Virus record (IMG/VR): IMGVR_UViG_3300028592_000026 | Coordinates: 1-46,002 of that record | Strand: one strand, 5' to 3' | Origin: a virus | DNA length: 46,002 nt | In this document: positions 7,333 through 43,123 of the stretch, piece by piece | Layout of the letters: every line of letters starts with the position of its first letter | Numbering within the stretch: the stretch's first letter is position 1 | Made by a program: the position numbers and the translations under genes | The notes under the pieces: generated by a model | Database searches by the model: none | Told to the model about the DNA's origin: nothing | What the model saw: only the letters and a program-made list of their open reading frames with translations

Positions 7333-7526
7333 GCTGCGGCATCCGTCGGGACCGGCGGCAAGTGACGTTCGAGGGCGATCAGCGTCGCGGCGCTGGGGTT
7401 CCACCCCGTGTCCTCGATGCCCTGCAAAGTGTTCGGGTGAAGCCCGGCCTTCTCGGCGAGACCTTTCTTGGTAACGCCCGGGCTCTTGAGATGGTCGCGG
7501 ATGCGCTCGATGGTGCTGATAACCAT
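7329..7526 (-). CDS. Cro-like XRE repressor
   Basis: 65 residues. A single helix-turn-helix domain: TKKGLAEKAGLHPNTLQGIEDTGWNPSAATLIALERHL. Its size and divergent position relative to the CI-like gene are those of a Cro protein, the first product of the left early operon, expected to bind the same operators as CI and shift development to lysis. Its promoter (7534-7562) overlaps an operator. Confidence 0.85.
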   Translation of the reverse strand: MVISTIERIRDHLKSPGVTKKGLAEKAGLHPNTLQGIEDTGWNPSAATLIALERHLPPVPTDAAA

Positions 7527-7533
7527 GACCGGC

Positions 7534-7562
7534 TAGAAACCACATCTGAATGTGTTTTTCAA
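7534..7562 (-). promoter_or_regulatory. Early-left promoter with operator in its spacer
   Basis: Read leftward: -35 TTGAAA (7557-7562), 17-bp spacer, -10 TTTCTA (7534-7539). The dyad CACATCTGAATGTG at 7541-7554 fills the spacer, so repressor binding would block RNA polymerase. It drives the Cro-like gene and the operon down to 1777. Confidence 0.65.
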
Positions 7563-7571
7563 GCGACAAAT

Positions 7572-7585
7572 CACATCAGCATGGG
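7572..7585. promoter_or_regulatory. Second left operator
   Basis: CACATCAGCATGGG is an imperfect copy of the operator dyad, 31 bp from the one at 7541. Read toward the promoter it matches the upstream operator of the right block (11107-11120) at 12 of 14 positions. It overlaps ATG 7581, an alternative CI start, and could mediate CI autoregulation or cooperative binding. Confidence 0.55.
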
Positions 7586-7610
7586 GTTTGTACCTGCTAG
7601 GCGCGCTCGT

Positions 7611-8276
7611 ATGGCCCGCACCCCGGAAGATCGCCGCGAGATACTTCGCAAGTTCATGTCCGAAAAAGGGCTCAAGCCGGGGCCATGGGCTAAGCAATCA
7701 GGCGTCGCGGCCAACTCGCTCTACAACTTCCTCAACGGCCATTCTGACGCCTTGGACCACACCACCTATGCCAAGCTTGCCCGAACGCAGCAGGTTCCGG
7801 TTTGGCGCTTGAGCGGGGACAAGCCAGAACCACCCGGCCCGTCCTCGCTATGGGTCGCCGGCCATGTAGAAGCGGGAGTTTTTCGCGAAGCTGTTCAATG
7901 GGATCAATCGCTGTGGTATTCGGTTGATGTGCCTGTGCCCGATCGATTCCGGCGCGTCGCGAAAGCCCTAGAAGTCCGCGGCCCGTCGATGAACCTTGAA
8001 TACCCGGATGGGTCCGTCGTGGTGTGGGTTGACGTGCTTGATGCCCGCCCAATGCAAGACGGCGATCATGTCATCGTCTATGCTCACCGGCACGACGACA
8101 GCATCGAAGCAACCGTCAAGGAGCTTCGCGTCATGAACGGCCGGAGGTGGCTGTTGCCGAAGTCAACGGATCCAGCTCACCAGGCCCCTATCGATCTCGA
8201 CGAGCCCGGCGAGGGAATTCGCGAAGTGGAGGTGAAGGGGATCGTGCTAGGCGGATACCGTCCTAGGCTGGTCTAG
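7611..8276 (+). CDS. CI/LexA-like phage repressor (S24 protease)
   Basis: 221 residues from ATG 7611; ATG 7581 would add ten. The N-terminal DNA-binding domain includes GPWAKQSGVAANSLYNFLNG. The C-terminal S24 domain has the self-cleavage dyad: Ser126 in VRGPSMN and Lys170 in EATVKEL, with Ala-Gly sites (VAGHVEAG, 82-89) as likely scissile bonds. It should hold lysogeny by binding both operator blocks and be inactivated by RecA-stimulated autocleavage. Neither start has a strong ribosome-binding site, as is common for CI genes. It converges on the lipoprotein relic 2 bp downstream. Confidence 0.88.
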   Translation: MARTPEDRREILRKFMSEKGLKPGPWAKQSGVAANSLYNFLNGHSDALDHTTYAKLARTQQVPVWRLSGDKPEPPGPSSLWVAGHVEAGVFREAVQWDQSLWYSVDVPVPDRFRRVAKALEVRGPSMNLEYPDGSVVVWVDVLDARPMQDGDHVIVYAHRHDDSIEATVKELRVMNGRRWLLPKSTDPAHQAPIDLDEPGEGIREVEVKGIVLGGYRPRLV

Positions 8277-9656: not shown

Positions 9657-9867
9657 GACGAGAGGGCATTCGCCAGTGGAACGCGTGACTCTAGCTGAAG
9701 CCATAGCCGCCGGGGACTTAGAACCCTTCATCCGGCAGGCGGAAGCCGATGGCATCGGCCCCGCTGATCGAGAACGGTTCGAAGCGATAGCGACGCGCGT
9801 CATAGCGCCCCCACCATCAGATCAAACATCGCGTTCACCCGCTCGCGATGGTTCTGGCGGAAAGTGA
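9655..9867 (+). CDS. Passenger: 70-residue acidic/basic protein
   Basis: 70 residues from ATG 9655. The helical part VERVTLAEAIAAGDLEPFIR and GIGPADRERFEAIATRVI is followed by a conserved-looking tail, PSDQTSRSPARDGSGGK. The tail overlaps the transposase 3' end by 68 bp on the opposite strand. It pairs with the divergent gene at 9402-9656; a two-component module (for instance toxin/antitoxin or regulator/target) is possible but unproven. Confidence 0.65.
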   Translation: MTRGHSPVERVTLAEAIAAGDLEPFIRQAEADGIGPADRERFEAIATRVIAPPPSDQTSRSPARDGSGGK

Positions 9868-10702
9868 ACTCACCCAGATAGCGTTCCATGTGCTTGCCGC
9901 TGATCTGGATATGCGTTGACCGCACCGACGCCTTGAACAGCCGCCAGAAGCCTTCCACGTGGTTCGTGGAGTGCGTCACGCCCTGCCGATAGTCGTAGTG
10001 CGTCCATTCTTTCGCGGAGTGCTTCACCGCACCGTGGATGTAGCCGTCGCCGGTGAGTAAGCCGTAGCTCATCAGTTCGTCGGTCGAGACAACCGAACCC
10101 TTTTCAACGTTCTCATTCACGACAGCGCGCAGGGTCGGCTTCTTCACGTCGGGAATAACCTTGGCGACCAGCGGGCCACCCTCCTGCTTCATACCCATAA
10201 CGATGGTCTTGCCGGGAGCGCCACGTCCGCGCTTACCACCCGAGCGGCGGCCCCCTACGTAGGCCTCATCGGCCTGAATATGGCCAGAAAGCAGGCCGTC
10301 GAAATCCGTGGCACCCATCAGCTTCCTGATCTGCATGCCGATACGGTAGGCGGTCTTATACGTCACCCCAAGCTGGCGCTGCAGCTCTTTGCCGCTGACA
10401 CCGTGGCGGGTCGTGGCGAACAGGTACATTGCATAGAACCAGCTAACCAGCGGTGTGCGGGTGTCGTGCAGAATGGTGTTTGCGGTCGGCGCGATCTGGA
10501 ACAGGCAATGCGGGCAGGCATAGACGCGGCGCTCGCGTAGCTTGTGGAACTCGCCCTCGATCCCGCAATCCGGGCAGAACATTTTCAGGCCGCCGAAGCG
10601 AACCGTCATGATGTGCTCAAGGCAGGCTTGATCGTCGGGGAAGCGCGCGAAGAACTGGCGGACGCTAAGTTCGGGCGATGCGGAAGGACTGCGCTTGCTC
10701 AT
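9800..10702 (-). CDS. IS1595-family (ISXO2-like) transposase
   Basis: 300 residues. The N-terminal zinc ribbon has CPDC and CPHC (about 43-66). A helix-turn-helix segment, SGKELQRQLGVTYKTAYRIG, is followed by the ISXO2-like DDE-type catalytic domain with IQADEAYVGGR (first Asp), VSTDELMSYG (second Asp) and STNHVEGFWRLFK (the final acidic/Asn-His motif). Full length with intact motifs, so probably active. It starts 27 bp inside the right inverted repeat. Confidence 0.95.
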   Translation of the reverse strand: MSKRSPSASPELSVRQFFARFPDDQACLEHIMTVRFGGLKMFCPDCGIEGEFHKLRERRVYACPHCLFQIAPTANTILHDTRTPLVSWFYAMYLFATTRHGVSGKELQRQLGVTYKTAYRIGMQIRKLMGATDFDGLLSGHIQADEAYVGGRRSGGKRGRGAPGKTIVMGMKQEGGPLVAKVIPDVKKPTLRAVVNENVEKGSVVSTDELMSYGLLTGDGYIHGAVKHSAKEWTHYDYRQGVTHSTNHVEGFWRLFKASVRSTHIQISGKHMERYLGEFTFRQNHRERVNAMFDLMVGAL

Positions 10703-12504: not shown

Positions 12505-12872
12505 GCGCGCAGCATACGCCGGGGCCTTGGGCGGTCGAAACACCGATGGGCGAAAGCGCTCCTTGGATCGTGCAGGACGGCAAGCAGGCCTATGAGTGGG
12601 AGCCTATCGCCACCCTCGGCGATTGCACCGAGGACGACCTGCCCAAGCGCAGCAAGGCCCAGAAGACGATCGAAGCCAACGCCCGCCTGATCGCAGCCGC
12701 GCCGGAGCTTCTTGAGGCCCTGGAAGATTTGCTCAGAATCGCTGCGCTGTGGGAAATTCTCGACCGCGGCAAGAACATCGATCTGGATTCGTCCGATGCC
12801 GCTCGCGCGGCCCGAGCCGCCATCGCCAAAGCCCGCGGTGAATCCCCCTCTATTACAAAAGGGGAAGGATAA
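12501..12872 (+). CDS. TPGPW-type phage early protein
   Basis: 123 residues. The opening MSAQHTPGPWAVE and the later KAQKTIEANARLIAAAPELLEALEDLLR are the signature of a widespread small phage protein whose function is unknown. The C-terminus contains DAARAARAAIAKA. Ends with TAATG coupling to the next gene. Confidence 0.82.
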   Translation: MSAQHTPGPWAVETPMGESAPWIVQDGKQAYEWEPIATLGDCTEDDLPKRSKAQKTIEANARLIAAAPELLEALEDLLRIAALWEILDRGKNIDLDSSDAARAARAAIAKARGESPSITKGEG

Positions 12873-13381
12873 TGGCTGACCTTCAGCCGTGCGCGCATTG
12901 CGGGGCGACTGACGGGCGCCTTGAGCAGTCGTTCTACCGAGCCAGCGACGAGTTCGCGATATGGTCTGTCGAGTGCCTTGATTGTGGCTCGGAGATTGCC
13001 AGCGACACTAGCCAAGTCGAAGCCGACGAGCATTGGAACCGTCGCGCACCCGATCCCCGCATCGCCCGTCTCGAAGCTGACAAGGCTGAACTGGTGGAGG
13101 CCCTAGAGCGGTTGGTGAACCGTGGCAGCAGGAACGACCCGCTTGATTTCCTCAACGCCGAGCGCGTCTTGGTTCGTATAAAAGGCGATACCCTCTCCCT
13201 TCGTGATGGCCCCCGCGCGCCCGAGTGCGCCGTGTCCCCGCTGCCCACCGGTAAGCATCAGGTCGATACCAGCATGGAGAGCGGGCCGCACAATTGTTTC
13301 TTCTGTGAGAGGCCTATGCCTGCCCTCGACCGCATCCAGGGTGATGATGCCTCTAATGGATTGGGAGGCGGCCATGAGTGA
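12872..13381 (+). CDS. Lar-like zinc-ribbon protein
   Basis: 169 residues. N-terminal two-CxxC ribbon: CAHCGATDG at about 7-15 and VECLDCGSEI, then EADEHWNRRAP, which is the Lar-type restriction-alleviation signature. A coiled coil (IARLEADKAELVEALERLV) follows and a second C-pair (CFFCERP) is near the C-terminus. Lar proteins of lambdoid phages protect DNA from type I restriction; homology here is limited to the ribbon. Confidence 0.7.
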   Translation: MADLQPCAHCGATDGRLEQSFYRASDEFAIWSVECLDCGSEIASDTSQVEADEHWNRRAPDPRIARLEADKAELVEALERLVNRGSRNDPLDFLNAERVLVRIKGDTLSLRDGPRAPECAVSPLPTGKHQVDTSMESGPHNCFFCERPMPALDRIQGDDASNGLGGGHE

Positions 13382-18613: not shown

Positions 18614-18792
18614 CTGCACCGGCGCGCTTCAAGCAGGAAGACATCAAGCGCGTGATGGCTGGTGCCCGCGCCGCTGGCTTCACTCGTGTGCGCGTCGGCA
18701 TTGACCCTAACGGCAACATCGTGGTCGAAGCGAGCAACGATCCTGGCGAGGCCCCGGATCGAGCCAACCCGCTGGACAGGCTGCTGCGATGA
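18610..18792 (+). CDS. Small protein upstream of integrase
   Basis: 60 residues from GTG 18610. FKQEDIKRVMAGARAAGFTRVRVGIDPNGNIVVEA forms a helix followed by a beta hairpin, as in small DNA-binding domains found directly before phage integrases. It overlaps the integrase start by ATGA. It occupies the usual excisionase slot but lacks a clear excisionase motif. Confidence 0.65.
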   Translation: MTAPARFKQEDIKRVMAGARAAGFTRVRVGIDPNGNIVVEASNDPGEAPDRANPLDRLLR

Positions 18793-19871
18793 AAACCCGC
18801 TATGATAACGTCACCGTCAACCGCGACCGGCACGGCAAGCTCCGTGCGCGATACCGCAAGGCTGGCGAGAAGGCGTTCTATCTCGACACGCTTCCGGATC
18901 AACCGGGCTTCGAGAAAGAACTGGCCGACAAGCGTGAAGCACCGCGAGACAGCGAGCTTAGGCACACGCCGGGCAGTGTCAACGATCTGCTCACCAGATA
19001 TTACAAGGCCGCCGACTTCGCCGCCAAGGGTACCGCGGAAACTCGCAAAGGCCGCCGCGGCATCCTCGAATCTTTCCGCGAGGGCTACGGCAACGACCGC
19101 GTCACCGACTTCAGCTTTGAGCATATCGAAGCGTTGCTGCTCGCCAAGACCGAAAAGAAGAAGGCCGACAGCGGGCGCACGGTTGGTGGACAGGTCGCAG
19201 CGCGCAAGCTGCGCAAGGAGCTTCGCCGGCTGTTCGCCTATGCCAAGAAGCTGAAATGGATCCAGACCAACCCGGTGGAGGAAGCTGAGAAAATCGGCAA
19301 GGCCAAGCTGTCTGGCTATTACCCTTGGACCGAAGACGATATTGCCCAGTATCAGGCCCGGCACAAGTTCGGCACCAAAGCCCGTCTAGCGTTGGAAATC
19401 TTGCTGTGGACAGGGCAACGGCGCGGCGATGGCCGGATGTTCGGGCCCAAGCACGTCATCGACGGCAAGATCAATTATCAGGCCGCAAAGACCGGTTCTG
19501 ACCTATGGCTTCCCGTGGCGAGCGATCTGCGCCGCGCGATTGACGCCATGCCCAGCGTCGGCATTCAGACCTATATCGTCACCGATTACGGCAAGCCGTT
19601 CACGAACGTCGGGTTCGGCAACAAGATGCGGGAATGGTGCGACCAGGCAGGGCTCCCGCTCTGCACCGCCCACGGACTGCGCAAGGCGATCGGACGCCGC
19701 ATGGCGCAGATGCGCTCGACCGACGAAGAGATGATGGCGGTCGGCGGCTGGCGCACAGCGTCACAGGTCCGCACCTATACCGATTCCGTCAATCAAGAGG
19801 ATCTGGCGAAGGCGACGATCGACCGCCTCGACTCGCGCTATTCGGTCAAGAAGGGTCCGGAAAATGACTAA
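18789..19871 (+). CDS. int: Tyrosine integrase
   Basis: 360 residues. An N-terminal arm-binding part is followed by a core-binding domain and the catalytic domain: Arg in TGQRRGD (211-214), Lys234 in AAKTG, His295 and Arg298 in AHGLRK, Trp321 in place of the second His, and the nucleophile Tyr330 in VRTYT. It catalyses site-specific integration and excision. The putative attP core lies 69 bp after its stop. Confidence 0.95.
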   Translation: MKTRYDNVTVNRDRHGKLRARYRKAGEKAFYLDTLPDQPGFEKELADKREAPRDSELRHTPGSVNDLLTRYYKAADFAAKGTAETRKGRRGILESFREGYGNDRVTDFSFEHIEALLLAKTEKKKADSGRTVGGQVAARKLRKELRRLFAYAKKLKWIQTNPVEEAEKIGKAKLSGYYPWTEDDIAQYQARHKFGTKARLALEILLWTGQRRGDGRMFGPKHVIDGKINYQAAKTGSDLWLPVASDLRRAIDAMPSVGIQTYIVTDYGKPFTNVGFGNKMREWCDQAGLPLCTAHGLRKAIGRRMAQMRSTDEEMMAVGGWRTASQVRTYTDSVNQEDLAKATIDRLDSRYSVKKGPEND

Positions 19872-25184: not shown

Positions 25185-27824
25185 TCAATCCGCTCGCCAA
25201 GATGCGGGCTCCAGATTGATGAGGTCCGTCGTCGCGGGCACGTCGTAGATCAGCAGCTCACCATCGATGATGTCGCCGCGGCACATCCCGATCATAGACC
25301 CGCTTGCAAAGGCTGGGAGGAACACGCGCACCGTGCGATCCGCGCGCAGATGGCGGGGGATCGTCATGAGCAGCGTGCCGTCGGCGATGGTGGTCACGGC
25401 AAGGTCGCCCCACAACGAGGTGTGTCCGCCGAAGTCCTGCTGATAGCCGAAGGTGCTTGGCGATGTGACGCCAGCGCCTAGAACGTCGACGATCAGCTCA
25501 CTGGTGTAGCCAGGCGGGATCGAGCCGAACAGTTCGAGTACGGCGTTGGCGAATGCCTGGGCGTAAAGCGCATGCCCCTTGCCCGGCGTCTGGTGGATGT
25601 TGTCGCGGAGCTGATAGCCGCCGCGGGGGTCGTTACGCAGACTCGGTTGCGGGTTTCCAAGCTCTTCGCAGATATCGACGTAGCGCACGCCCTTCTCAAG
25701 ACAGACGCGCTTGATCTCACCTCGGTACCACGCCCCGGCATCATCGTTTTGCGTGACGAAGCCCGTATTGCCACCAGCGGCGTATGAGTACCAGATGTAT
25801 GGTATCATCACGATCGGGATGACGCCGGCTGCCAGCAAATCATCCAAGCCATCGGTCCATGTCGTGGTGAACACGGCCCGGTTGGTCAGACCCTGAATAT
25901 CGTTCGTGCCTGCGCAAATGCCCACCACCGAAGCGGTCGTGCTGGGCAGGAAGGCCAACGTCGCCGCGAAGATGCCAGCACTATCCCCGCCAACGCCGCC
26001 AACGTTCCATAGCGGCCCGACCTGAAGCCCGTGCGATCCCTCCAGCAACTCAGGAACACGGCTCGGCCATGTGCAGGCGCCCATATCCTCAACGGTGCTG
26101 TCGCCGCCGAAAAGGATGCCGCCTTTCAGGTTAATACCACCAGACACCTGGTTGCTCTTGTCGAGCGTATATGTATCGAAATGATAGGTGTTGGCGTCGA
26201 TCGCGTAATAGCCAAGGCCGACTTCTTGAATGTCGCCGACATTTCCCATGCTAATAGGCTGGCGCAGGAATGATTCACCGTTAGGCCTAATCACCACTTG
26301 ATTTGCCGAAATGCGCGTGATCGACCACCGCGAGCGCTCAAACCGGAAGACCCCATTGACCCCTTTATTGGGGTAGGGAAGGTTCGTTAAATCCTGAAAA
26401 GGACCTCCCAGCGTCTTGGCGATCTGATGGGCCGGGTCATCAATCCCTGCGACCACCGATGCATACGCACCCGCGTATCCATTCGTGCCGCGAACGAAGA
26501 TGCCAACCGCCCCCGAAGTCGGGATGTCGGCCATCCCCATCTCCACAGTCTCACCGACAGCGATCTGCACGAAGCCAACGGCGAAGTTGCCGCCCAACCC
26601 GGTAAAGCTCACCGAAGAAGTGGACGAGGCCGTTGCTGCAACATCGGTCCATGTGTCATTGGTCGGTGGCCACTGGTTCGGCCTGCGTAGAAACACCTGC
26701 TTTGCCGCCGCGGTCATGTCGATCAGCCGCTGCGTGCGGTGCCGGGCAAACTCCATCGGCGGACGCTGTGGGATCACATGCGGCTCGGGGTCAGCCGGGA
26801 ACATGGTCGTGATACCGACATCGCGCAGCGTCACCGACGTCGGCTTGGCGAACGACATCGCCGCCATCGTCCCGTACAGTGGCGGGGAACCATCGAGGCC
26901 GGGAATGGAGATCGTCGTCAGCGGATCGACATCGAGCGATACACCCGTGAACATGCCCGCATTGGCGGTGCTGAACGTGTAGGTTGTTGCCTCGTCCGAT
27001 ACAGCGGTGAAGCGGACGACATCACCCCCTGCCTTTGCCGCGTTAAAAGCTGTCACCACATTGCTGGCACCGGTTGGCGAGCCGAAGGTCAGCATGTTAG
27101 GCCGTACCGCATCGGCAACGCTCGTCTTGTTGAGCGCGACTTGATCGGCCTGCTGGCGCACCCACGCACCAACGCTCAGCGCTGTGCTGTCAGCTTTGAT
27201 GATGTTGATGTCGTCGGCGAGACCGGTGTAGTCGCCAGGCGTCCAGAAGAAGTCACCCGGCGCGATACCCGACGCGTTGAGCGATTGGCGCTCGTTTGAG
27301 ATCGGCGCTGCCTTGAACGTGGCAAGGGTTAGGTACGTCGGGCCTGCGGGACCTGCGGGGCCAGTCGCTCCGGCGACAACCCCAGACATATCAACGACGA
27401 TGCTTTGTTGCACCAACGTTGCGGGAATGGCACCTAGCGAGCCGACGCCCCCGGCGCTCCCCCCGACTAGGAACTTGCCCTCAAAGTACCTTGCCTGCGT
27501 ATTTTCGTCACCCGCGTCAGTCTGAATATCGAAATACCACACCCACTCGACATCCTCGCCGACCTCGGCAGGGGCGGGGACACTTTCCATATCCGCCTTC
27601 GCGATCGTCATGGTCAGGTGACTGACTGGCGTTCCATCGTCATCTTCAACGCTATCGAGGGTAACCGTAGGCGTGATTTCAGGGCTTGCCGGGTCATTGT
27701 CCCAGTCCTGCAACACGACGGCACTCAGCACGGCCCCTGTAAGATCCATGCCGCGAAGAGAGATGGGAACGACAAGCGCGTTCGTTCGGACCCCCCGCAA
27801 GGGGACCGTTGCAGTTTTGATCAT
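25185..27824 (-). CDS. Tail fibre with SGNH hydrolase domain
   Basis: 879 residues. The N-terminal ~120 residues are an attachment domain (MIKTATVPLRGVRTNALVVP...). A collagen-like GPAGPAGP stretch follows, then a beta-rich region. From about 560 comes an SGNH/GDSL hydrolase: GGDST (about 573), CAGTND (about 640) and DNIHQTPGKGHALY (about 740) give Ser, Gly/Asn and Asp-His. A virion-borne esterase probably deacetylates host surface polysaccharide during adsorption. Confidence 0.85.
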   Translation of the reverse strand: MIKTATVPLRGVRTNALVVPISLRGMDLTGAVLSAVVLQDWDNDPASPEITPTVTLDSVEDDDGTPVSHLTMTIAKADMESVPAPAEVGEDVEWVWYFDIQTDAGDENTQARYFEGKFLVGGSAGGVGSLGAIPATLVQQSIVVDMSGVVAGATGPAGPAGPTYLTLATFKAAPISNERQSLNASGIAPGDFFWTPGDYTGLADDINIIKADSTALSVGAWVRQQADQVALNKTSVADAVRPNMLTFGSPTGASNVVTAFNAAKAGGDVVRFTAVSDEATTYTFSTANAGMFTGVSLDVDPLTTISIPGLDGSPPLYGTMAAMSFAKPTSVTLRDVGITTMFPADPEPHVIPQRPPMEFARHRTQRLIDMTAAAKQVFLRRPNQWPPTNDTWTDVAATASSTSSVSFTGLGGNFAVGFVQIAVGETVEMGMADIPTSGAVGIFVRGTNGYAGAYASVVAGIDDPAHQIAKTLGGPFQDLTNLPYPNKGVNGVFRFERSRWSITRISANQVVIRPNGESFLRQPISMGNVGDIQEVGLGYYAIDANTYHFDTYTLDKSNQVSGGINLKGGILFGGDSTVEDMGACTWPSRVPELLEGSHGLQVGPLWNVGGVGGDSAGIFAATLAFLPSTTASVVGICAGTNDIQGLTNRAVFTTTWTDGLDDLLAAGVIPIVMIPYIWYSYAAGGNTGFVTQNDDAGAWYRGEIKRVCLEKGVRYVDICEELGNPQPSLRNDPRGGYQLRDNIHQTPGKGHALYAQAFANAVLELFGSIPPGYTSELIVDVLGAGVTSPSTFGYQQDFGGHTSLWGDLAVTTIADGTLLMTIPRHLRADRTVRVFLPAFASGSMIGMCRGDIIDGELLIYDVPATTDLINLEPASWRAD

Positions 27825-36305: not shown

Positions 36306-36601
36306 GCGAGTGCCGGGTCCCGGTAGCGCCACAGCAAGGATTTTACTGCATCGCTGATTGGGTCTCCGCCCTCTCGATTGTCGAACAGTGCCCCGAGAAC
36401 GAGAAGGATCGCGGCCTTCACCAGTGCCGGTGCATCCGCTTCCGTCCATTCGTGATCAGGGCGCTTGAGATAGTCGATCACAATATCACTTGCAGCCTCG
36501 GCCTGGAACGTGACCGTCGCTGCGATATCCGCGTCTTCAAACTCATCCTCGGTGAGCCGAAGGTGCGTGCGCGCTTCCTCGAGCGTGATCAGCGCGGCCA
36601 T
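36302..36601 (-). CDS. Head-tail connector (gp6-like)
   Basis: 99 residues from ATG 36601, TAATG overlap with the upstream gene. AALITLEEARTHLRLTEDEF, DADIAATVTFQAEAASDIVI and PALVKAAILLVLGALFDNRE are the hallmark of gp6-like connectors, which form a ring beneath the portal. Confidence 0.88.
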   Translation of the reverse strand: MAALITLEEARTHLRLTEDEFEDADIAATVTFQAEAASDIVIDYLKRPDHEWTEADAPALVKAAILLVLGALFDNREGGDPISDAVKSLLWRYRDPALA

Positions 36602-37392
36602 TACTTGGCGTCCTTCCCATCGCGCCCCTTCTTGGCGCAAAGGGTCCAGTCACCGCCGTCAGGCTTGCCGGCCGTTCCCTTGTTGGCGTGCCATAGCGAG
36701 CCGCCCCAAGTGACCGTGTCGCCTTCCTCGTAAGCCTGGCCATCCTGCCAGACACCGCGGTAGATCATGACCGGAAATGGGATTTGAAAAGCGTACTCGG
36801 TATCGCCCTTGTCGAAGCTGAAGCGCAGCGTGCGCCCATCCTCCATCAAGGTCAGGCCGATGTCCTCCGGCCCCATGCCGTGCTGACCATCCTTGCCGGG
36901 CTCACCGTCCTGCCCATCCTTGCCGACGACCTGGCCAAGCTCTTTCATGCGGCCATCGGTGAACGTCGCGACGAGCCCGCCGGTGCGATCAATCACCAGA
37001 TCAGCGATCCCAGCCCCATCCTTGCCCGGCTCGCCGTTGGTTGGCACCGGGATTTCAGCGACAGCCTTTGCGACGCCTTCCTCGATCAGGGGACGCACAT
37101 CGTCGAGAGTGATGCTCGTGCCATCCTTCGGCGCAGGGATCGCCTTCACCCGTTCCGACACAGCGCGTTCGACTAGTTCCCCAATGGCATCCATGTCTGG
37201 AGCGATGGGCTCCGGCGCGGCCGGAATATGCAGCTTCGAAACCTCACCCGCGACCATCGCGACGAAATCAGGCGTGTCCGCCTTGGCTTCCTCTAGCGCC
37301 GCAATACGTGCGAGCAGCGGGGCCGTCGCCGCCTCAACGTGCTGCTTTACGATGGCAGCCGTCGCTTCGGCGAGAGCCTTGGTGTCAAGCAT
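36601..37392 (-). CDS. Collagen-like head fibre/decoration protein
   Basis: 263 residues. An N-terminal coiled coil, two collagen-like GxY stretches (NGEPGKDGAG and GKDGQDGEPGKDGQHG) and a C-terminal carbohydrate-binding-like module (YRGVWQDGQAYEEGDTVTWG, LWHANKGTAGKPDGGDW). The module resembles chitin/polysaccharide-binding CBM5/12 domains. It lies between connector and portal genes, so it probably decorates the capsid or neck and binds surface glycans. Confidence 0.75.
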   Translation of the reverse strand: MLDTKALAEATAAIVKQHVEAATAPLLARIAALEEAKADTPDFVAMVAGEVSKLHIPAAPEPIAPDMDAIGELVERAVSERVKAIPAPKDGTSITLDDVRPLIEEGVAKAVAEIPVPTNGEPGKDGAGIADLVIDRTGGLVATFTDGRMKELGQVVGKDGQDGEPGKDGQHGMGPEDIGLTLMEDGRTLRFSFDKGDTEYAFQIPFPVMIYRGVWQDGQAYEEGDTVTWGGSLWHANKGTAGKPDGGDWTLCAKKGRDGKDAK

Positions 37393-38743
37393 TCAAGGCC
37401 TCCCGCAGATCTTTCTCGAAGAGGGCGAGCGCAGCACGGCGCGCTTCCTCATTGTCATTGGCGACTTCTTCAACCGGGGCCGGTGCCGGTGCGGCGGTGC
37501 CGAACGGGTCTTCCTGCGCATCCCGCTTCGCGAGGGCCGCGAGGCTGTAGTTTTGCTGCTGCAGATAAACAGCGTCACCACCCGCGGTGGGCTTCTTGTC
37601 GAGCTTGGCGCGCATCTCATCGATCTTCAGAATGCCGGCGCCCTCCTTCAGGACCTGCATCTGGGTCACGCTGTCCATGCGCAGCAAGTTGTCGATGTCG
37701 AACTCGGTGCCTAGCGTTTCACCAGTCGCCAAGCCCTCATCTAGGCATAGCTCGATCGCCTCAATCAGCACCTGAAGGCACTGCGAGTAATACTCGGTGT
37801 TGAGCGCCTGAACGTTGTTGTAACTGGGCAGATCGCCCACGCCGATCTTGTAGGGCGGAACGTGGTAGGTCGAGCAGATGACCTCGGCTGTCCACTTCAA
37901 CTGCTCAATCAACTGCGCGTCAGTCGATTTCATCGACATCGCTTCGTACTTCAGGCCATCGCCTAGAACCGCGACCTTGCCGGCGTTCGAACCACTGAAG
38001 TTCGCGTCCCAGTATTCCTTGAGCCGCACCGCGGTCTCGTCGCTGATCGCTTCTGGCGCTGTCAGGATACCACCGGGGCGAGCGCCGTTCTGGAACAGCT
38101 TCGTGCTGGCGTTCTGGATCGCGATGCCCTGCGTCGCTGCGAGCCCGTTAGCGAAGATCGGCGACAGCCCGACCAGCGGGTGGAAGAAGCAGTTGAACCG
38201 GTCGTGGATGATCTCGCGAGCGGGGACGACAATCTGCTCCCCCACGCCGCTCAGATTGTCCGCGCGCAGCTCGTAAAACACTTCACCGCTATCCGAGACC
38301 AGCGGCGTCACCAGATCCGGCGAAAGCACATAGAGACCAACGACGACGCCACGCCCATCCCTGCGCTTCAGGACGTAGGTGTTGCCGCGCTGGAGCTTTG
38401 ACAGCACCCAATTCTCGAAGAACTGAATCCGGTTCTGATATCCGTTCGGCTTCCGCAGTACAGGCGAATACGCTGGGTTCTTGACCTCGCTCCAGATGCC
38501 GTCGCTATCCTGCGCGACCAGCTTGACCCGAAGTTTTGAAATGTCGCTCGCGATCAGGGTTTGGCAGGCGAAGACGGCATGGTTTGCCAGCACGCTGTCC
38601 GGGCTAATCGGTGGGGCGTTCTGCTGCCAAGCGCCGGGGAAATATTCCCGAATGACTGGCCACCAGCCACCGCGCCCCTCGGCAACAGGGCTGAGGGCCT
38701 TTTTCTCTGCACCGCGGGAGATGGTGAAGCCGAACAACTGCAT
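37385..38743 (-). CDS. HK97-type portal protein
   Basis: 452 residues. FACQTLIASDISKLRVKLVA, FENWVLSKLQRGNTYVLKRR, EIIHDRFNCFFHPLVGLSPI, KLFQNGARPGGILTAPEAIS and VICSTYHVPPYKIGVGD are the classic blocks. The dodecameric ring admits DNA, anchors the motor and joins head to tail. It overlaps the decoration gene by 8 bp. Confidence 0.95.
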   Translation of the reverse strand: MQLFGFTISRGAEKKALSPVAEGRGGWWPVIREYFPGAWQQNAPPISPDSVLANHAVFACQTLIASDISKLRVKLVAQDSDGIWSEVKNPAYSPVLRKPNGYQNRIQFFENWVLSKLQRGNTYVLKRRDGRGVVVGLYVLSPDLVTPLVSDSGEVFYELRADNLSGVGEQIVVPAREIIHDRFNCFFHPLVGLSPIFANGLAATQGIAIQNASTKLFQNGARPGGILTAPEAISDETAVRLKEYWDANFSGSNAGKVAVLGDGLKYEAMSMKSTDAQLIEQLKWTAEVICSTYHVPPYKIGVGDLPSYNNVQALNTEYYSQCLQVLIEAIELCLDEGLATGETLGTEFDIDNLLRMDSVTQMQVLKEGAGILKIDEMRAKLDKKPTAGGDAVYLQQQNYSLAALAKRDAQEDPFGTAAPAPAPVEEVANDNEEARRAALALFEKDLREALNA

Positions 38744-39453
38744 CAGGCGGCCTCCCTCTCATTCGTGACGCGATAATTTGCTCGGACGAACTTGTTGATG
38801 TGAACGAGCGACCACGGCTTGAGCGTGCCGGGGAAGAACAGAACCCGCGGCTCGGTCTCGGTCCGCATCGGACGCGAGCCGTGCCAGTGCACCCCGTCCG
38901 CTTCGCTCCACGTCGCCTCGCCGTAACCGAGAATATGCGCGAGCCATGCCTGATCCGAGCCGGTGTATAGCTGCCCCGCTTCGATTGCTCCGTCCTGCGT
39001 GAACTTCTCGTACACCTGCGGCCTGCATCCAGCCGTCATCAGGATCATACTGCCATTGTACGGGCGGTTGGGGGCCGTCCCCTTGAAGATGACCAGATCA
39101 TCCGAGCGATCGAACAGCGGATCCAGCGGCCCACCAATCACCACGTCCAGATCCATGCACACGAACCGCTTGCCAAACATGGCGGCTGCATCGCGGCGGA
39201 ACATCGCGAGCCGGCGAAAGCAACTCGGTCGGCCATTGGCCCACCGCGGCGTCGTCACATCCTCAAACTCACCCGGCGGGGTGATGATCCTGACTTTCGG
39301 ATCAATGCCTCTAGGCATGTTGGTCACGCAGGCCAACTCGTGCGGCATCGCGAGATTGCGCGAGACCATCGAGGCCCAGATATTCACATGATCAGCGGTG
39401 TACGCGGTTCGGCCGTTCGGCTGCTTCCACAGCCAGGTCAGGATGGTAATCAC
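38743..39453 (-). CDS. GT-A-fold glycosyltransferase
   Basis: 236 residues. MITILTWLWKQPNGRTAYTA, CFRRLAMFRRDAAAMFGKRF then CMDLDVVIGG, with the DxD-type metal/sugar-nucleotide motif at 101-103, and YNGSMILMTAG and TGSDQAWLAHIL. Probably transfers a sugar onto a virion or host substrate. It is the last of four extra genes between the capsid and portal genes and is coupled to both sides (ATGA, TGATG). Confidence 0.8.
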   Translation of the reverse strand: MITILTWLWKQPNGRTAYTADHVNIWASMVSRNLAMPHELACVTNMPRGIDPKVRIITPPGEFEDVTTPRWANGRPSCFRRLAMFRRDAAAMFGKRFVCMDLDVVIGGPLDPLFDRSDDLVIFKGTAPNRPYNGSMILMTAGCRPQVYEKFTQDGAIEAGQLYTGSDQAWLAHILGYGEATWSEADGVHWHGSRPMRTETEPRVLFFPGTLKPWSLVHINKFVRANYRVTNEREAA

Positions 39454-40346
39454 GCGGCCTTGGCCATTTGCTTGAACAGCGGCGCATAGCGAACCACGAA
39501 GTCAGGCCGGTTTGTGCGCAGATATTCCCATTTCTTCGCGACCGCATCGTTAGTCATGACCGGACGAAGGCGCTCTACCGCCTCCCTTGGGTGACCCGAG
39601 TCGCACAGAAACATTGCCGCTCCGCACTGAAATAGCGGGGCTTTTTCTTCAGGTACGAATGAGGACCAATATTCCCATGCTTCGGCAATCTCTTCGGGTG
39701 ACCAGCGGTCAAGCGAGAGCGCTTTGAGTGAGACCTCCGACGCGTTCCATTGCGACTTGACCCGGAACACCAGCGTCGTCCCCGGCACCACCGCTTCGAC
39801 GAACTCGATGTGATGCCGAAGCCGATACAGGCACGCCGGAATTTCATAGCTCGGGAAGTGGCAGAAGTCCTGCCACGCCATGATCGCACCCGGCTGCAAT
39901 GCCTCCCGTAGTTCGGTCAGCACGGGCGAAATCTGAGGTACACGCTTTGGCGCATCGGTGATCAGGACGCCAATGGGGCCACCGCTCCATTGCAGGTCCT
40001 CAATCTGCCCCTGGTGAACCTCCACATGATCGATCAGCGGCCCGAGATTGGCCTTGAACTGCTGGAGGCTCGGCCCGATGGGGATCGCCCCACCGTGCTT
40101 GCCGTAGAACGCCTCGACCTTCCGCGCGTGCCCGGGTTTCGACAGGAACTTGTCATAGACCTGCACCTTGCGGTCAGCGCCAGAATCCCGAACGCCAGCC
40201 GCGATATAGGCCGTTGAAGCGCCTAACCACGCGCCGAACTCCACGATCGCGCCTTCACCAGCCTCCTTTGCTAGCCGATAGTATAACGACCGCTCGGCAT
40301 CGGTCGTCATTGCCGGAATAGGCTTTACGCCTTCGAGTGGGTGCAT
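39450..40346 (-). CDS. SAM-dependent methyltransferase (class I)
   Basis: 298 residues. GAIVEFGAWLGASTAYIAAG is the SAM-binding motif I, followed by VQVYDKF. VEVHQGQIEDLQWSGGPIGV and LQPGAIMAWQDFCHF complete a TylF/FkbM-like Rossmann methylase. Sugar O-methyltransferases of this kind accompany glycan synthesis, which fits the adjacent glycosyltransferase. The C-terminal 80 residues are helical. A 22-bp overlap joins it to the upstream gene. Confidence 0.8.
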   Translation of the reverse strand: MHPLEGVKPIPAMTTDAERSLYYRLAKEAGEGAIVEFGAWLGASTAYIAAGVRDSGADRKVQVYDKFLSKPGHARKVEAFYGKHGGAIPIGPSLQQFKANLGPLIDHVEVHQGQIEDLQWSGGPIGVLITDAPKRVPQISPVLTELREALQPGAIMAWQDFCHFPSYEIPACLYRLRHHIEFVEAVVPGTTLVFRVKSQWNASEVSLKALSLDRWSPEEIAEAWEYWSSFVPEEKAPLFQCGAAMFLCDSGHPREAVERLRPVMTNDAVAKKWEYLRTNRPDFVVRYAPLFKQMAKAA

Positions 40347-40807
40347 ACGACCTTTCCAGCAATCCGGTCCAAGCCCAACACCTGCGCCATGGCGAGGCGG
40401 TGGTTGCCCTGGTTCCCGATGAATACATTCCCGTCGCGGCCGATCAGAAAGGTGGGCAAAGGCCCTGCCTCCGCATCGAACCCGCGGCTTTTCATGTCCT
40501 CGAACATGCCGTCCACGCGGCTATAATATTGCTCGAGCAGCGCTCTCATTGACGCGCAGCCACGCACGCTCTCGCGCCGGCCAAGCCTCCCTGCGTAGGC
40601 GTGGCGGAACAGGTCCGTGTCTTCCCACGCCGCACCGCCGCGGTATCGCTGAGCAATCGCCCGGTGCTTGACGGCCTCCGCCAACGGGAAGCGTCGCGTG
40701 AGGTCCCAGTCACCACCGACAACGCCCTGAAGCCCATCAAGCGGCGATATCTTGAACCTGATCAGTTGCGGGGCGATCCATAACACCGACAACGATTTCG
40801 TCGCCAT
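40325..40807 (-). CDS. ParB/sulfiredoxin-like domain protein
   Basis: 160 residues; the start could be later (GTG 40786), since ATG 40807 overlaps the neighbour by 71 bp. LPTFLIGRDGNVFIGNQGNH and RLAMAQVLGLDRIAGKVVCT form a ParB-like core with the G-N-x-G-N-H-R motif found in ParB/Srx superfamily ATPases/nucleases. The N-terminal part (PQLIRFKISPLDGLQGVVGG) is unlike ParB. A nuclease, kinase or nucleotide-binding role is possible. Confidence 0.65.
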   Translation of the reverse strand: MATKSLSVLWIAPQLIRFKISPLDGLQGVVGGDWDLTRRFPLAEAVKHRAIAQRYRGGAAWEDTDLFRHAYAGRLGRRESVRGCASMRALLEQYYSRVDGMFEDMKSRGFDAEAGPLPTFLIGRDGNVFIGNQGNHRLAMAQVLGLDRIAGKVVCTHSKA

Positions 40808-41339
40808 CGGTCACTTCCTCGGCAATTCGATATCCATGGCGCTCAAGCAGGTCCCGCATACCCTCAAGCGAGGCGTAGCGGTTGAAATCCCCTAGCGGCT
40901 CATGCGGCGTGCCAGCGCGCCAGTTGTCGGCACGGTTGCGGTTGCCACAGAGAACCACGGTCGGAATGCGCTCGGCAATCTCCGCGAATACCGCATCAAT
41001 CGTCTCGCGCAGGTAATAGACCATCCGCACCGCCACGAGCGTGTCCTTGCCGTCCAGCAAAGCGATGCTGTCGCCGATCGACCCGTTGACGAACTCGACG
41101 CCTGCCACTCGCCACTTGCTGGCCAGTCTCAGCGCCTCAACGTGGCGTTCGCGGTTCTGCTCAACCGCGGTGACCTCCCTGCTCTCCTTGGCCATCAGCA
41201 GCGCAAGCACGCCCTCGGCTGAGCCGAGTTCGATCACATGTTCGCCAGTGACGAAGGGAAGGATGCGGGTGTACTTCTCTGGAACTTCGCCGCGGAAGAT
41301 CGCGGCCTGGTTCTTGCGGTAAGCGAGGCTCCCCGTCAC
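40737..41339 (-). CDS. Class I methyltransferase, second copy
   Basis: 200 residues. HVIELGSAEGVLALLMAKES is the SAM-binding motif I, then EVTAVEQNRERHVEALRLAS, FVNGSIGDSIALLDGKDTLV and VVLCGNRNRADNWRAG. A compact methylase unrelated in detail to the one at 39450. It is coupled to the capsid-side gene by ATGA. Substrate unknown. Confidence 0.78.
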   Translation of the reverse strand: MTGSLAYRKNQAAIFRGEVPEKYTRILPFVTGEHVIELGSAEGVLALLMAKESREVTAVEQNRERHVEALRLASKWRVAGVEFVNGSIGDSIALLDGKDTLVAVRMVYYLRETIDAVFAEIAERIPTVVLCGNRNRADNWRAGTPHEPLGDFNRYASLEGMRDLLERHGYRIAEEVTDGDEIVVGVMDRPATDQVQDIAA

Positions 41340-41626
41340 GCCGCTGCGATCTTCTCGCGCAGGGTAGCAGCATCCCAGCCGTTGAAGGGGTTCTTGCTCA
41401 GCTTCTCGCGGTACTCAGCCCGGAGTGCGGCCAGGTCGTCGCCAGTGCTGGACGGCGTCGGCGCATCGGCTTGAGCTATCTTGGCCCGCGGTGCCGTCTT
41501 CGTAGCGCGACCGAGCGCCAAGATAGCGCGTGCAGCAGGCCCTGAGAGGTACAGGGGCTCACCAGCGGTCAGCATGCGCGTTCCATAGCGCCTGCTCTTG
41601 GTGGCATAGACAGTGCGGTGGGCCAT
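41336..41626 (-). CDS. Small head protein
   Basis: 96 residues. MAHRTVYATKSRRYGTRMLT and AGEPLYLSGPAARAILALGR begin a basic domain; NGWDAATLREKIAAA ends it. Similar short basic proteins follow the capsid gene in related phages. Possible head-tail connector or decoration factor. Confidence 0.68.
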   Translation of the reverse strand: MAHRTVYATKSRRYGTRMLTAGEPLYLSGPAARAILALGRATKTAPRAKIAQADAPTPSSTGDDLAALRAEYREKLSKNPFNGWDAATLREKIAAA

Positions 41627-41638
41627 TCCCGTCTCCTT

Positions 41639-41668
41639 GAAAAAGGGCGGCGAGCCGAAGCCCGCCGC
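41639..41668 (-). terminator. Intrinsic terminator after the capsid gene
   Basis: On the minus strand a 9-bp stem (GCGGCGGGC/GCTCGCCGC, one G-U pair) with a TTCG loop is followed by CC and a run of five T. It starts 9 bp after the capsid stop. It should cut expression of downstream head genes relative to the capsid, which is needed in far higher amounts. Confidence 0.82.
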
Positions 41669-41677
41669 TCGTTACAC

Positions 41678-43123
41678 TCAGCTCAGGTCGTTGACCGGAC
41701 CGCCCCAAGCCACGCCAGTCAGGTACGCGACCGCAGAAGTGCGGCGACGTGCCCAGTTGATCGTGCGCTCGGCGAGGAAGCCGACGCTGTTGGTCTGCCA
41801 CAGCGAGACGGTCGAAGCAGCCGTTCCCGGCACCACGCCGATCGAGTCACCCGTCAGCGAGCTGTCGAGCATTTCGATTGAAGCCTCGCGGCTCATATCG
41901 AGGCGGATGCCGCCTTCGTCGGCCAGATACACATCGGCCGCGTTGATCATCGCCACCACACCAGCCGGGACATGCTCCGAGGTGATGACCGGGATGCCAA
42001 GCAGCATACCGCCGTTCATGCCGATGCCGTTGAACTCGCTCTGACCGAGCGCATTGACCATCATCGACAGCGCCAGCGCCGTGTCCGAGCGCATCACGAG
42101 AACACCGGTCGTCGGCGGGTTGTTCGCCGCAATGTACTCGTTCAGCAGCGAGCGGATGTCCGCGCGCACGTCGTCCGCATCACCCGTGCCCGACGCCGCG
42201 GCATGCGGGGCGCCATTGGTGATCGATGCCGGCGAAACGCCCGCGCTTGCGGTCTTGGCAGGATTGATGAAGTCGATGTCCAGACGGGCCTTGAGCGCCT
42301 CTGCGAGCTGGTCGCGCACGATCGCTTCGGCCGAAGGCGAGGAATCACGGATGACCTCATCGGTCAGCACCGCGATATTCGCGACCTTCAGCGGCTCCAG
42401 GGTCGTGCGGGCGAAGTCGAACGAGGTCAGAGGTTTTGCCTTGCCCTCGCCTACCCAGTAGCCCTCGCCGCCAGCCGTCTGGCTGATCAACGGAACTCGG
42501 AACGGAACTCGGCGCAGCGACGGAATGCCGTTCGTGCCGAACTTGCCGAGGATCGTCATCGGGCGCAGGAACGACACGAAGTCAGCGAAGGCCGAAGTCG
42601 TGTCGCCGACCAGATCCTCCGCCCAGCTTCCCGATTGGGTCGAGCCTGCAGGAACTTCCGCCTTCTCGATCGCCTGGAAACCGCGGTCTGCGAGGTTCTT
42701 CAGCGTGCCGAAGGCGTTGCTGTCCTCGCCATAACGGATGCCGGCGAGGCGAGCCGCGTCGTGGACGTTGCCCTTGGCCATGCCGAAGCATTTGACGAGG
42801 CGGGCAAAGCCAATGCCCGGATCCAGCTTGGGCTGGGTCTTGACCTGAATCTGTCCCTGACGGGTACCGGCGCCTTCATCGGCCTTCTGGCCAGCGACCG
42901 GCGTCAGCTTGGTCGTGTCGATCGACGTCTTCTCCATCGAGCGGAGACGCTTCAGGTGAGCGTCAATGGCCTCGACCTGCTCCTGGTTGTCGTCGAACTC
43001 TTCGGTCTGCGAGGCGTCGAGGGTCGAACCCTCACCCGCGGCCTTTTCCATGATGGTGGCATTGGCAGCCACCAGCGACGCGCGCTTCGTTTCGAAGGCG
43101 CTGATCTGCTCAGCGTAGTTCAT
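41678..43123 (-). CDS. HK97-type major capsid protein
   Basis: 481 residues. The N-terminal coiled-coil delta domain (EQISAFETKRASLVAANATI...VEAIDAHLKRLRSM) acts as internal scaffold and is removed by the protease. The HK97 fold follows: FADFVSFLRPMTILGKFGTN, LKVANIAVLTDEVIRDSSPS, LLNEYIAANNPPTTGVLVMR, RTINWARRRTSAVAYLTGVA. It forms the icosahedral shell. Confidence 0.95.
   Translation of the reverse strand: MNYAEQISAFETKRASLVAANATIMEKAAGEGSTLDASQTEEFDDNQEQVEAIDAHLKRLRSMEKTSIDTTKLTPVAGQKADEGAGTRQGQIQVKTQPKLDPGIGFARLVKCFGMAKGNVHDAARLAGIRYGEDSNAFGTLKNLADRGFQAIEKAEVPAGSTQSGSWAEDLVGDTTSAFADFVSFLRPMTILGKFGTNGIPSLRRVPFRVPLISQTAGGEGYWVGEGKAKPLTSFDFARTTLEPLKVANIAVLTDEVIRDSSPSAEAIVRDQLAEALKARLDIDFINPAKTASAGVSPASITNGAPHAAASGTGDADDVRADIRSLLNEYIAANNPPTTGVLVMRSDTALALSMMVNALGQSEFNGIGMNGGMLLGIPVITSEHVPAGVVAMINAADVYLADEGGIRLDMSREASIEMLDSSLTGDSIGVVPGTAASTVSLWQTNSVGFLAERTINWARRRTSAVAYLTGVAWGGPVNDLS

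Follow-up and report, generated by a model that had tools for sequence, protein, structure and literature searches.

The stretch analyzed here, referred to as the window, is the 46 kb IMG/VR virus record IMGVR_UViG_3300028592_000026 (46,002 nucleotides), and the subject of the analysis is a cassette of four genes at 38743–41339, located between the genes of the HK97-type capsid and the portal protein. Read along the minus strand, the gene order is TerL, prohead protease, HK97-type capsid, the head-block gene sm, the methyltransferase gene MTA, a ParB-like gene, the methyltransferase gene MTB, a glycosyltransferase gene (GT), portal and a collagen-like gene, followed by smaller connector- and tail-type open reading frames (ORFs). 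All four cassette ORFs were found intact where an earlier reading of the DNA, hereafter the original prediction, had placed them. The locus comprises the following features:

41678–43123, minus strand: HK97-fold major capsid protein (PF05065, 1.9e-22; phrog_617, 4.9e-103), the upstream flank and a candidate target
41647–41668, minus strand: terminator-like UUCG hairpin with a T-run, between the capsid gene and sm
41336–41626, minus strand: sm, a 96-aa head-block gene (phrog_29995, 1.8e-16)
40737–41339, minus strand: MTA, putative class I S-adenosylmethionine (SAM) methyltransferase, 200 aa; motif I ELGSAEG, conserved LCGNxNRA
40325–40807, minus strand: ParB-like protein, a single predicted ParB/sulfiredoxin-fold domain, 160 aa; conserved helical insert, P-motif GNQGNHR (131–137), no helix-turn-helix (HTH)
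39450–40346, minus strand: MTB, putative class I SAM methyltransferase of the Methyltransf_24 type, 298 aa; conserved C-terminal extension
38743–39453, minus strand: GT, predicted GT8-like GT-A glycosyltransferase, 236 aa; DLD 101–103, YNGS 132–135, GSDQA 165–169, FFPG...KPW
37385–38743, minus strand: portal protein (PF04860, 1.3e-86), the downstream flank
36601–37392, minus strand: collagen-like protein; weak CBM5/12 match (PF02839, 8e-4), below the Pfam cut-off

The reading frames are tightly packed, with overlaps of 4 nt for sm/MTA, 71 nt for MTA/ParB-like, 22 nt for ParB-like/MTB, 4 nt for MTB/GT and 1 nt for GT/portal. The claim that the cassette genes overlap one another and the head genes thus holds for sm and portal, but not for the capsid gene, which has no overlap with the genes downstream. 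The sm gene is part of the normal head block and forms the upstream edge of the insertion site, between capsid and cassette. The hairpin at 41668–41647 has nine pairs, eight of them G-C, and the folding energy of the stretch is −21.5 kcal/mol (z −2.5); similar GC-rich hairpins follow the capsid gene in relatives both with and without the cassette. It probably lowers the expression of all genes downstream relative to the capsid. Late expression together with the virion genes, as originally proposed, is likely, with some attenuation possible at this hairpin.

The GT protein of the window has no Pfam match and only a PHROGs match at E 0.0014, while a profile built from 19 of its homologues touches Skp1 galactosyltransferase and glycogenin. 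Its AlphaFold2 (AF2) model (predicted local distance difference test, pLDDT, 88.8) aligned with LgtC (1g9r) at Z 17.5 over 216 residues and with glycogenin at Z 17.4; the Foldseek match is at E 3e-9. The motifs DLD, NGS and GSDQA are invariant in 17–19 homologues, DLD in all 19, in agreement with the GT-A glycosyltransferase with a DxD motif named originally. With LgtC and glycogenin, which are of the CAZy GT8 type, GT shares the fold, the DxD motif and a near full-length structural alignment, but only 13–16% identity. Because it does not match Pfam GT8 (PF01501), which only one of the 19 family members touches, at E 0.21, we call it GT8-like rather than a GT8 member. On this modeling it is a GT8-like GT-A fold protein and a predicted retaining glycosyltransferase. 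LgtC itself is a lipo-oligosaccharide enzyme.

The ParB-like protein likewise has no Pfam match, including none to the Pfam ParB or HTH families. Its AF2 model (pLDDT 94.8) retrieved sulfiredoxin (Srx), ParB, Noc, KorB, PadC, SerK, SbnI or related entries as the leading Foldseek/VIA matches, with structural Z up to 6.4 over 82 residues, where values below 8 are weak if taken alone; SerK and SbnI are matched in fold only, at Z 3.5–5. GNQGNHR, which corresponds to the GxxR phosphate motif of the ParB/Srx fold, is invariant, with GNHR present in all 24 ParB-like sequences. The model and this motif support a ParB/sulfiredoxin fold for the gene that had been singled out by its G-N-x-G-N-H-R motif. 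The 160 residues are filled by the Srx-like domain and a conserved helical insert. An identity as a partition protein was rejected: this is a single domain without HTH or dimerization domain, and it does not match Pfam ParB. Sulfiredoxin, whose motif is GCHR with a catalytic Cys, was rejected as well, since Asn occupies the position of that Cys in 24/24 sequences. Compared with the superfamily of SerK, SbnI, Srx and the ParB-CTPases, the protein thus shares the predicted fold and the phosphate-binding motif, and differs in its missing HTH and dimerization domains, its helical insert, the Asn in place of Cys and the lack of a Pfam family. It is a predicted nucleotide-binding enzyme or switch.

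For MTB, a match to PF13578 above the cut-off (1.5e-8) was found. The initial label of a TylF/FkbM-like methyltransferase was therefore right as to the enzyme class and not as to the family: the protein is of the Methyltransf_24 type, TylF is matched weakly (0.027), and FkbM was not matched in the Pfam scan. MTA matches PF13489 (3.6e-5) and PF13649 (9e-5), both below the curated cut-offs, and its SAM-binding motif is invariant in 23 sequences, which bears out the second methyltransferase that had been proposed. The DNA-methylase motif [DNS]PP[YFW] or PC[QN] occurs in 0/44 MTA and MTB sequences. Judged by these motifs and profiles, MTA and MTB are class I methyltransferases that lack the hallmark of DNA methyltransferases. 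PDB sequence searches with MTB and with the ParB-like protein returned nothing useful.

A search for the same gene set in other phages, which had been suggested as a check, revealed that it recurs. The ParB-like protein retrieved 42 loci from IMG/VR, and the untruncated ones have MTA upstream and MTB downstream. Among IMG/VR contigs with enough sequence, the complete MTA–ParB–MTB trio was present in 35/35 searched from MTA and 35/35 searched from MTB, two sets that share contigs and include near-duplicates. In a distant clade, the ParB-like protein and MTB are fused into a single ORF. The three genes are thus an obligate trio in IMG/VR. Of the 33 trio loci that continue for over 2.5 kb downstream, 32 have GT; of the 63 GT loci that continue for over 3 kb upstream, 40 have no trio. 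As GT is often found alone and the trio almost never without GT, the product of GT is the probable substrate of the trio.

The cassette lies mostly between sm or capsid and portal, and elsewhere downstream of a collagen-like gene. At two loci (L012 and L013) it stands between connector-like and head–tail genes, in a conventional gene order with a different type of capsid and portal. Pairwise-identity correlation, used to look for joint transfer of the cassette genes, was not decisive: ParB–MTB is the tightest pair (0.81), but the correlation of portal with the trio is almost as high. Against the nearest relative (L004), the ratios of nonsynonymous to synonymous substitution rates (dN/dS) are 0.13 for MTA, 0.10 for ParB-like, 0.13 for MTB and 0.05 for GT; the values are rough, the synonymous divergence (dS) being near saturation, and indicate purifying selection on all four genes in this comparison. 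Given the recurrence in 42 loci, the invariant motifs and dN/dS of 0.05–0.13, the cassette is not a chance assembly. Its nucleotide sequence had no blastn match in 50,697 phage records, in which only GT has clear homologues, in EBPR siphovirus 3 and Tetraselmis viridis virus S20.

To map the insertion site, 72 portal relatives with both flanks were compared. In 51 of them sm (or capsid) is followed directly by portal, 13 carry another insert, 5 carry GT without the trio, and 3 carry the full cassette. A relative with a 78% identical portal (L054) has an empty site at which sm directly abuts portal. The genes are accordingly accessory and not part of the standard head block, as had been stated, and the capsid/sm–portal junction is an insertion hot spot. 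Other inserts at this position include genes for GT2, GT9, hexapeptide acyltransferase, TupA-like ATP-grasp, phosphoribosyltransferase, MptE-like and methyltransferase proteins. Homing-endonuclease-like ORFs, read by eye as HNH/NUMOD4 or GIY-YIG, were also observed at the hot spot (L008:10305–10874, L023:6240–6923, L018:4833–5654 and L102:5183–6016).

Comparable arrangements were noted in cultured and named systems. A cultured analogue is the Bradyrhizobium elkanii plasmid pUSDA31-2 (L290:3885–6490), on which phage structural genes occur and portal is followed by genes for GT9, two methyltransferases and a GT8-like protein; the ParB-like gene is missing from it. PAJU2 (L042, 7780–9723) and Tetraselmis viridis virus S20 (L038, 4125–9708) carry inserts in the head–tail region annotated as sialyltransferase, methyltransferase and glycosyltransferase; the trio profiles do not recognize PAJU2 gp10–gp13 or the S20 genes upstream of its GT.

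The collagen-like gene with its carbohydrate-binding-like module had been offered as corroboration of a glycan-modified virion, and this argument does not hold. The gene is present in 73/73 portal relatives with enough downstream sequence, with or without the cassette, its CBM5/12 match lies below the cut-off, and among the relatives collagen repeats showed no clear difference with cassette presence. It is a lineage core gene outside the cassette and is no evidence for glycosylation. Separately, two loci encode collagen-repeat proteins inside the cassette, between MTB and GT (L028:4769–5941 and L030:9328–10134), which are possible glycan acceptors.

Cellular homologues of MTB and the ParB-like protein point to a glycan context. 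Alignment scans of 85k bacterial and archaeal genomes with ParB-like and MTB confirmed no relative, a result that excludes only close relatives, since tblastn found haloarchaeal and cyanobacterial plasmid homologues. Distant ParB-like relatives, annotated as hypothetical, are encoded on haloarchaeal plasmids with E down to 7e-10 (L285:6800–7630, L286:6818–7633, L287:6923–7531, L288:1043–1852, L289:7103–7498, L291:7040–7585 and L292:6716–7546); the match to the profile extends over most of the domain and includes the arginine of GxxR. Glycan or sugar-oxidoreductase gene clusters surround 4 of these 7 genes, the other three contexts being uninformative and no background neighbor rate having been computed. 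The Natronorubrum context contains a flippase, AglF, O-antigen ligases and glycosyltransferases; the two Halobaculum contexts a flippase, an epimerase and Gfo/Idh/MocA, with a glycosyltransferase in one; and the Halobellus context WecB, a nucleotide-sugar dehydrogenase and glycosyltransferases. The best MTB matches in the plasmid collection include C-terminal parts of Nostoc and Oscillatoria glycosyltransferases: in Nostoc, MT–GT4–MTB are joined in a single 1078-aa protein, and in Oscillatoria, GT4–MTB. In Rhizobium tropici, a free-standing MTB homologue lies in a polysaccharide cluster, where it adjoins genes for GT2 and Branch glycosyltransferases and is close to one for an ABC-2 transporter. 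These GT4 fusions and the four haloarchaeal contexts, together with the GT8-like fold, support the role in glycan modification that had been proposed.

With moderate confidence, we propose that the cassette is a virion-glycan module in which GT glycosylates a virion protein with a hexose and the trio adds methyl groups to the product. During virion assembly late in infection, the GT8-like enzyme would move the hexose from a nucleotide sugar onto a phage structural protein, and the MTA–ParB–MTB trio would then finish the added sugar. Both methyltransferases may O-methylate it, while the ParB/Srx-fold protein would bind a nucleotide and then either phosphorylate the substrate or gate MTB. This model builds on the folds, conserved motifs, obligate trio, its dependence on GT, the ParB–MTB fusion, the hot spot and the cellular gene contexts computed here; we infer that the acceptor is a virion protein, either the capsid or some other late product, that GT acts before the trio, and what the ParB-like protein does. 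Consistent with a virion target, GT and the modifying genes are located within the structural operon with overlapping reading frames.

Several observations weigh against this proposal. One trio locus (L044) lacks GT, the cassette is not bound to a single capsid type, as seen at L012 and L013, and outside the cassette no informative homologue of MTA was found. Moreover, the LgtC enzyme type and the surface-glycan clusters of the MTB and ParB-like homologues fit equally well with modification of the host surface, the main rival explanation, in which the enzymes would alter lipopolysaccharide (LPS), capsule or another host glycan, late or in the lysogen, and so block re-adsorption or superinfection. 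LgtC is the closest solved fold to GT, and the phage is probably temperate, as it encodes an integrase (18789–19871, plus strand; PF00589, 1.2e-8) and an S24-type repressor (7362–8276, plus strand). Lysogenic conversion by phage LPS-modifying genes is also known from epsilon15 (cited in PMC5537653). We nevertheless regard this explanation as rather unlikely, given that the cassette is embedded in the structural operon and does not form a separate lysogenic-conversion locus, that hydropathy predicts no transmembrane segment in any of the four proteins, and that neither a flippase nor a lipid-carrier gene is present in the insert.

One particular form of the virion-glycan proposal is a methyl-phosphate cap, in which the ParB-like protein would act as a sugar (or protein) kinase and MTB would methylate the phosphate. 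It follows the analogy of WbdD, which phosphorylates a glycan end and then methylates that phosphate (PMC3482155). Two proteins with this fold, SerK and SbnI, have kinase activity, and some proteins in which a ParB-fold domain is fused to a bacterial SAM methyltransferase bind ATP (PMC12704722); in one clade here, the ParB-like protein and MTB are likewise fused. However, the kinase activity is only putative, WbdD has a different kinase fold and a polysaccharide O-antigen context, and the ParB/Srx fold also serves as a cytidine triphosphate (CTP) switch, with a nucleotide specificity that is not predictable from sequence (PMC12704722). The likeness to WbdD therefore lies in a possible logic, the coupling of a domain that uses a nucleoside triphosphate with a methyltransferase that completes a glycan, and the cap remains doubtful in our view. 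Far less probable is a system for DNA modification, which the original prediction had also entertained, or for anti-restriction. Phage ParB-fold/methyltransferase fusions are predicted to act on DNA (PMC12704722), and MTB weakly matches phrog_2675, 'DNA methyltransferase' (4e-4). Against this stand the absent DNA-methylase motifs, a GT that is GT8-like, homologues that neighbor glycan genes, and no nucleotide-hypermodification gene among the window proteins scanned (part of the ORFs).

Returning to the virion-glycan module, the kind of system is already known from the Corndog precedent and from the virion glycosylation reported for Che8, Corndog and Myrna (Freeman et al. 2023, as cited in PMC11256854 and PMC12363180). 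Corndog carries an O-methyltransferase, two glycosyltransferases and a putative N-acetylglucosamine (GlcNAc) transferase between portal and protease, along with an unexplained dearth of capsid peptides (PMC4351075). The likeness to Corndog/Cluster O gp35–gp38 consists of an O-methyltransferase and glycosyltransferases in the head operon, by portal and protease, linked to virion glycosylation (PMC4351075; Freeman et al. 2023, as cited in PMC12363180). That block differs in its position and has no ParB-fold gene, the ParB-like gp90 being encoded elsewhere; the comparison was made by description. What is new here is the obligate trio with an undescribed ParB/Srx-fold family, the reliance of the trio on GT, and the connection between this family and haloarchaeal glycan clusters; a literature search found no paper describing the trio, its ParB-fold member or the gene set. 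Tentatively, the ParB-like family of phages and haloarchaeal plasmids might represent a new glycan-modifying class: sugar kinases, or nucleotide-gated subunits, of the ParB/Srx fold that would work with a methyltransferase partner to cap a virion glycan in methyl-phosphate or methylated form.

Phage virion glycosylation has so far been shown in few groups, mainly mycobacteriophages. A lineage with mapped empty-site, GT-alone and full-cassette states provides a natural series for testing the roles of virion glycans in adsorption, stability and recognition. The ParB/Srx fold, best known for DNA partition, is here extended to a likely role in glycan modification, with independent support from the haloarchaeal gene context.

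Elsewhere in the phage record, an IS1595-type transposase gene is present at 9800–10702 (minus strand), and a restriction-alleviation protein Lar is weakly matched at 12872–13381 (plus strand; 4e-6, slightly short of the cut-off). Downstream of the tail genes, an 879-aa protein (25185–27824, minus strand) contains a GDSL/SGNH hydrolase domain and could act on host surface glycans.

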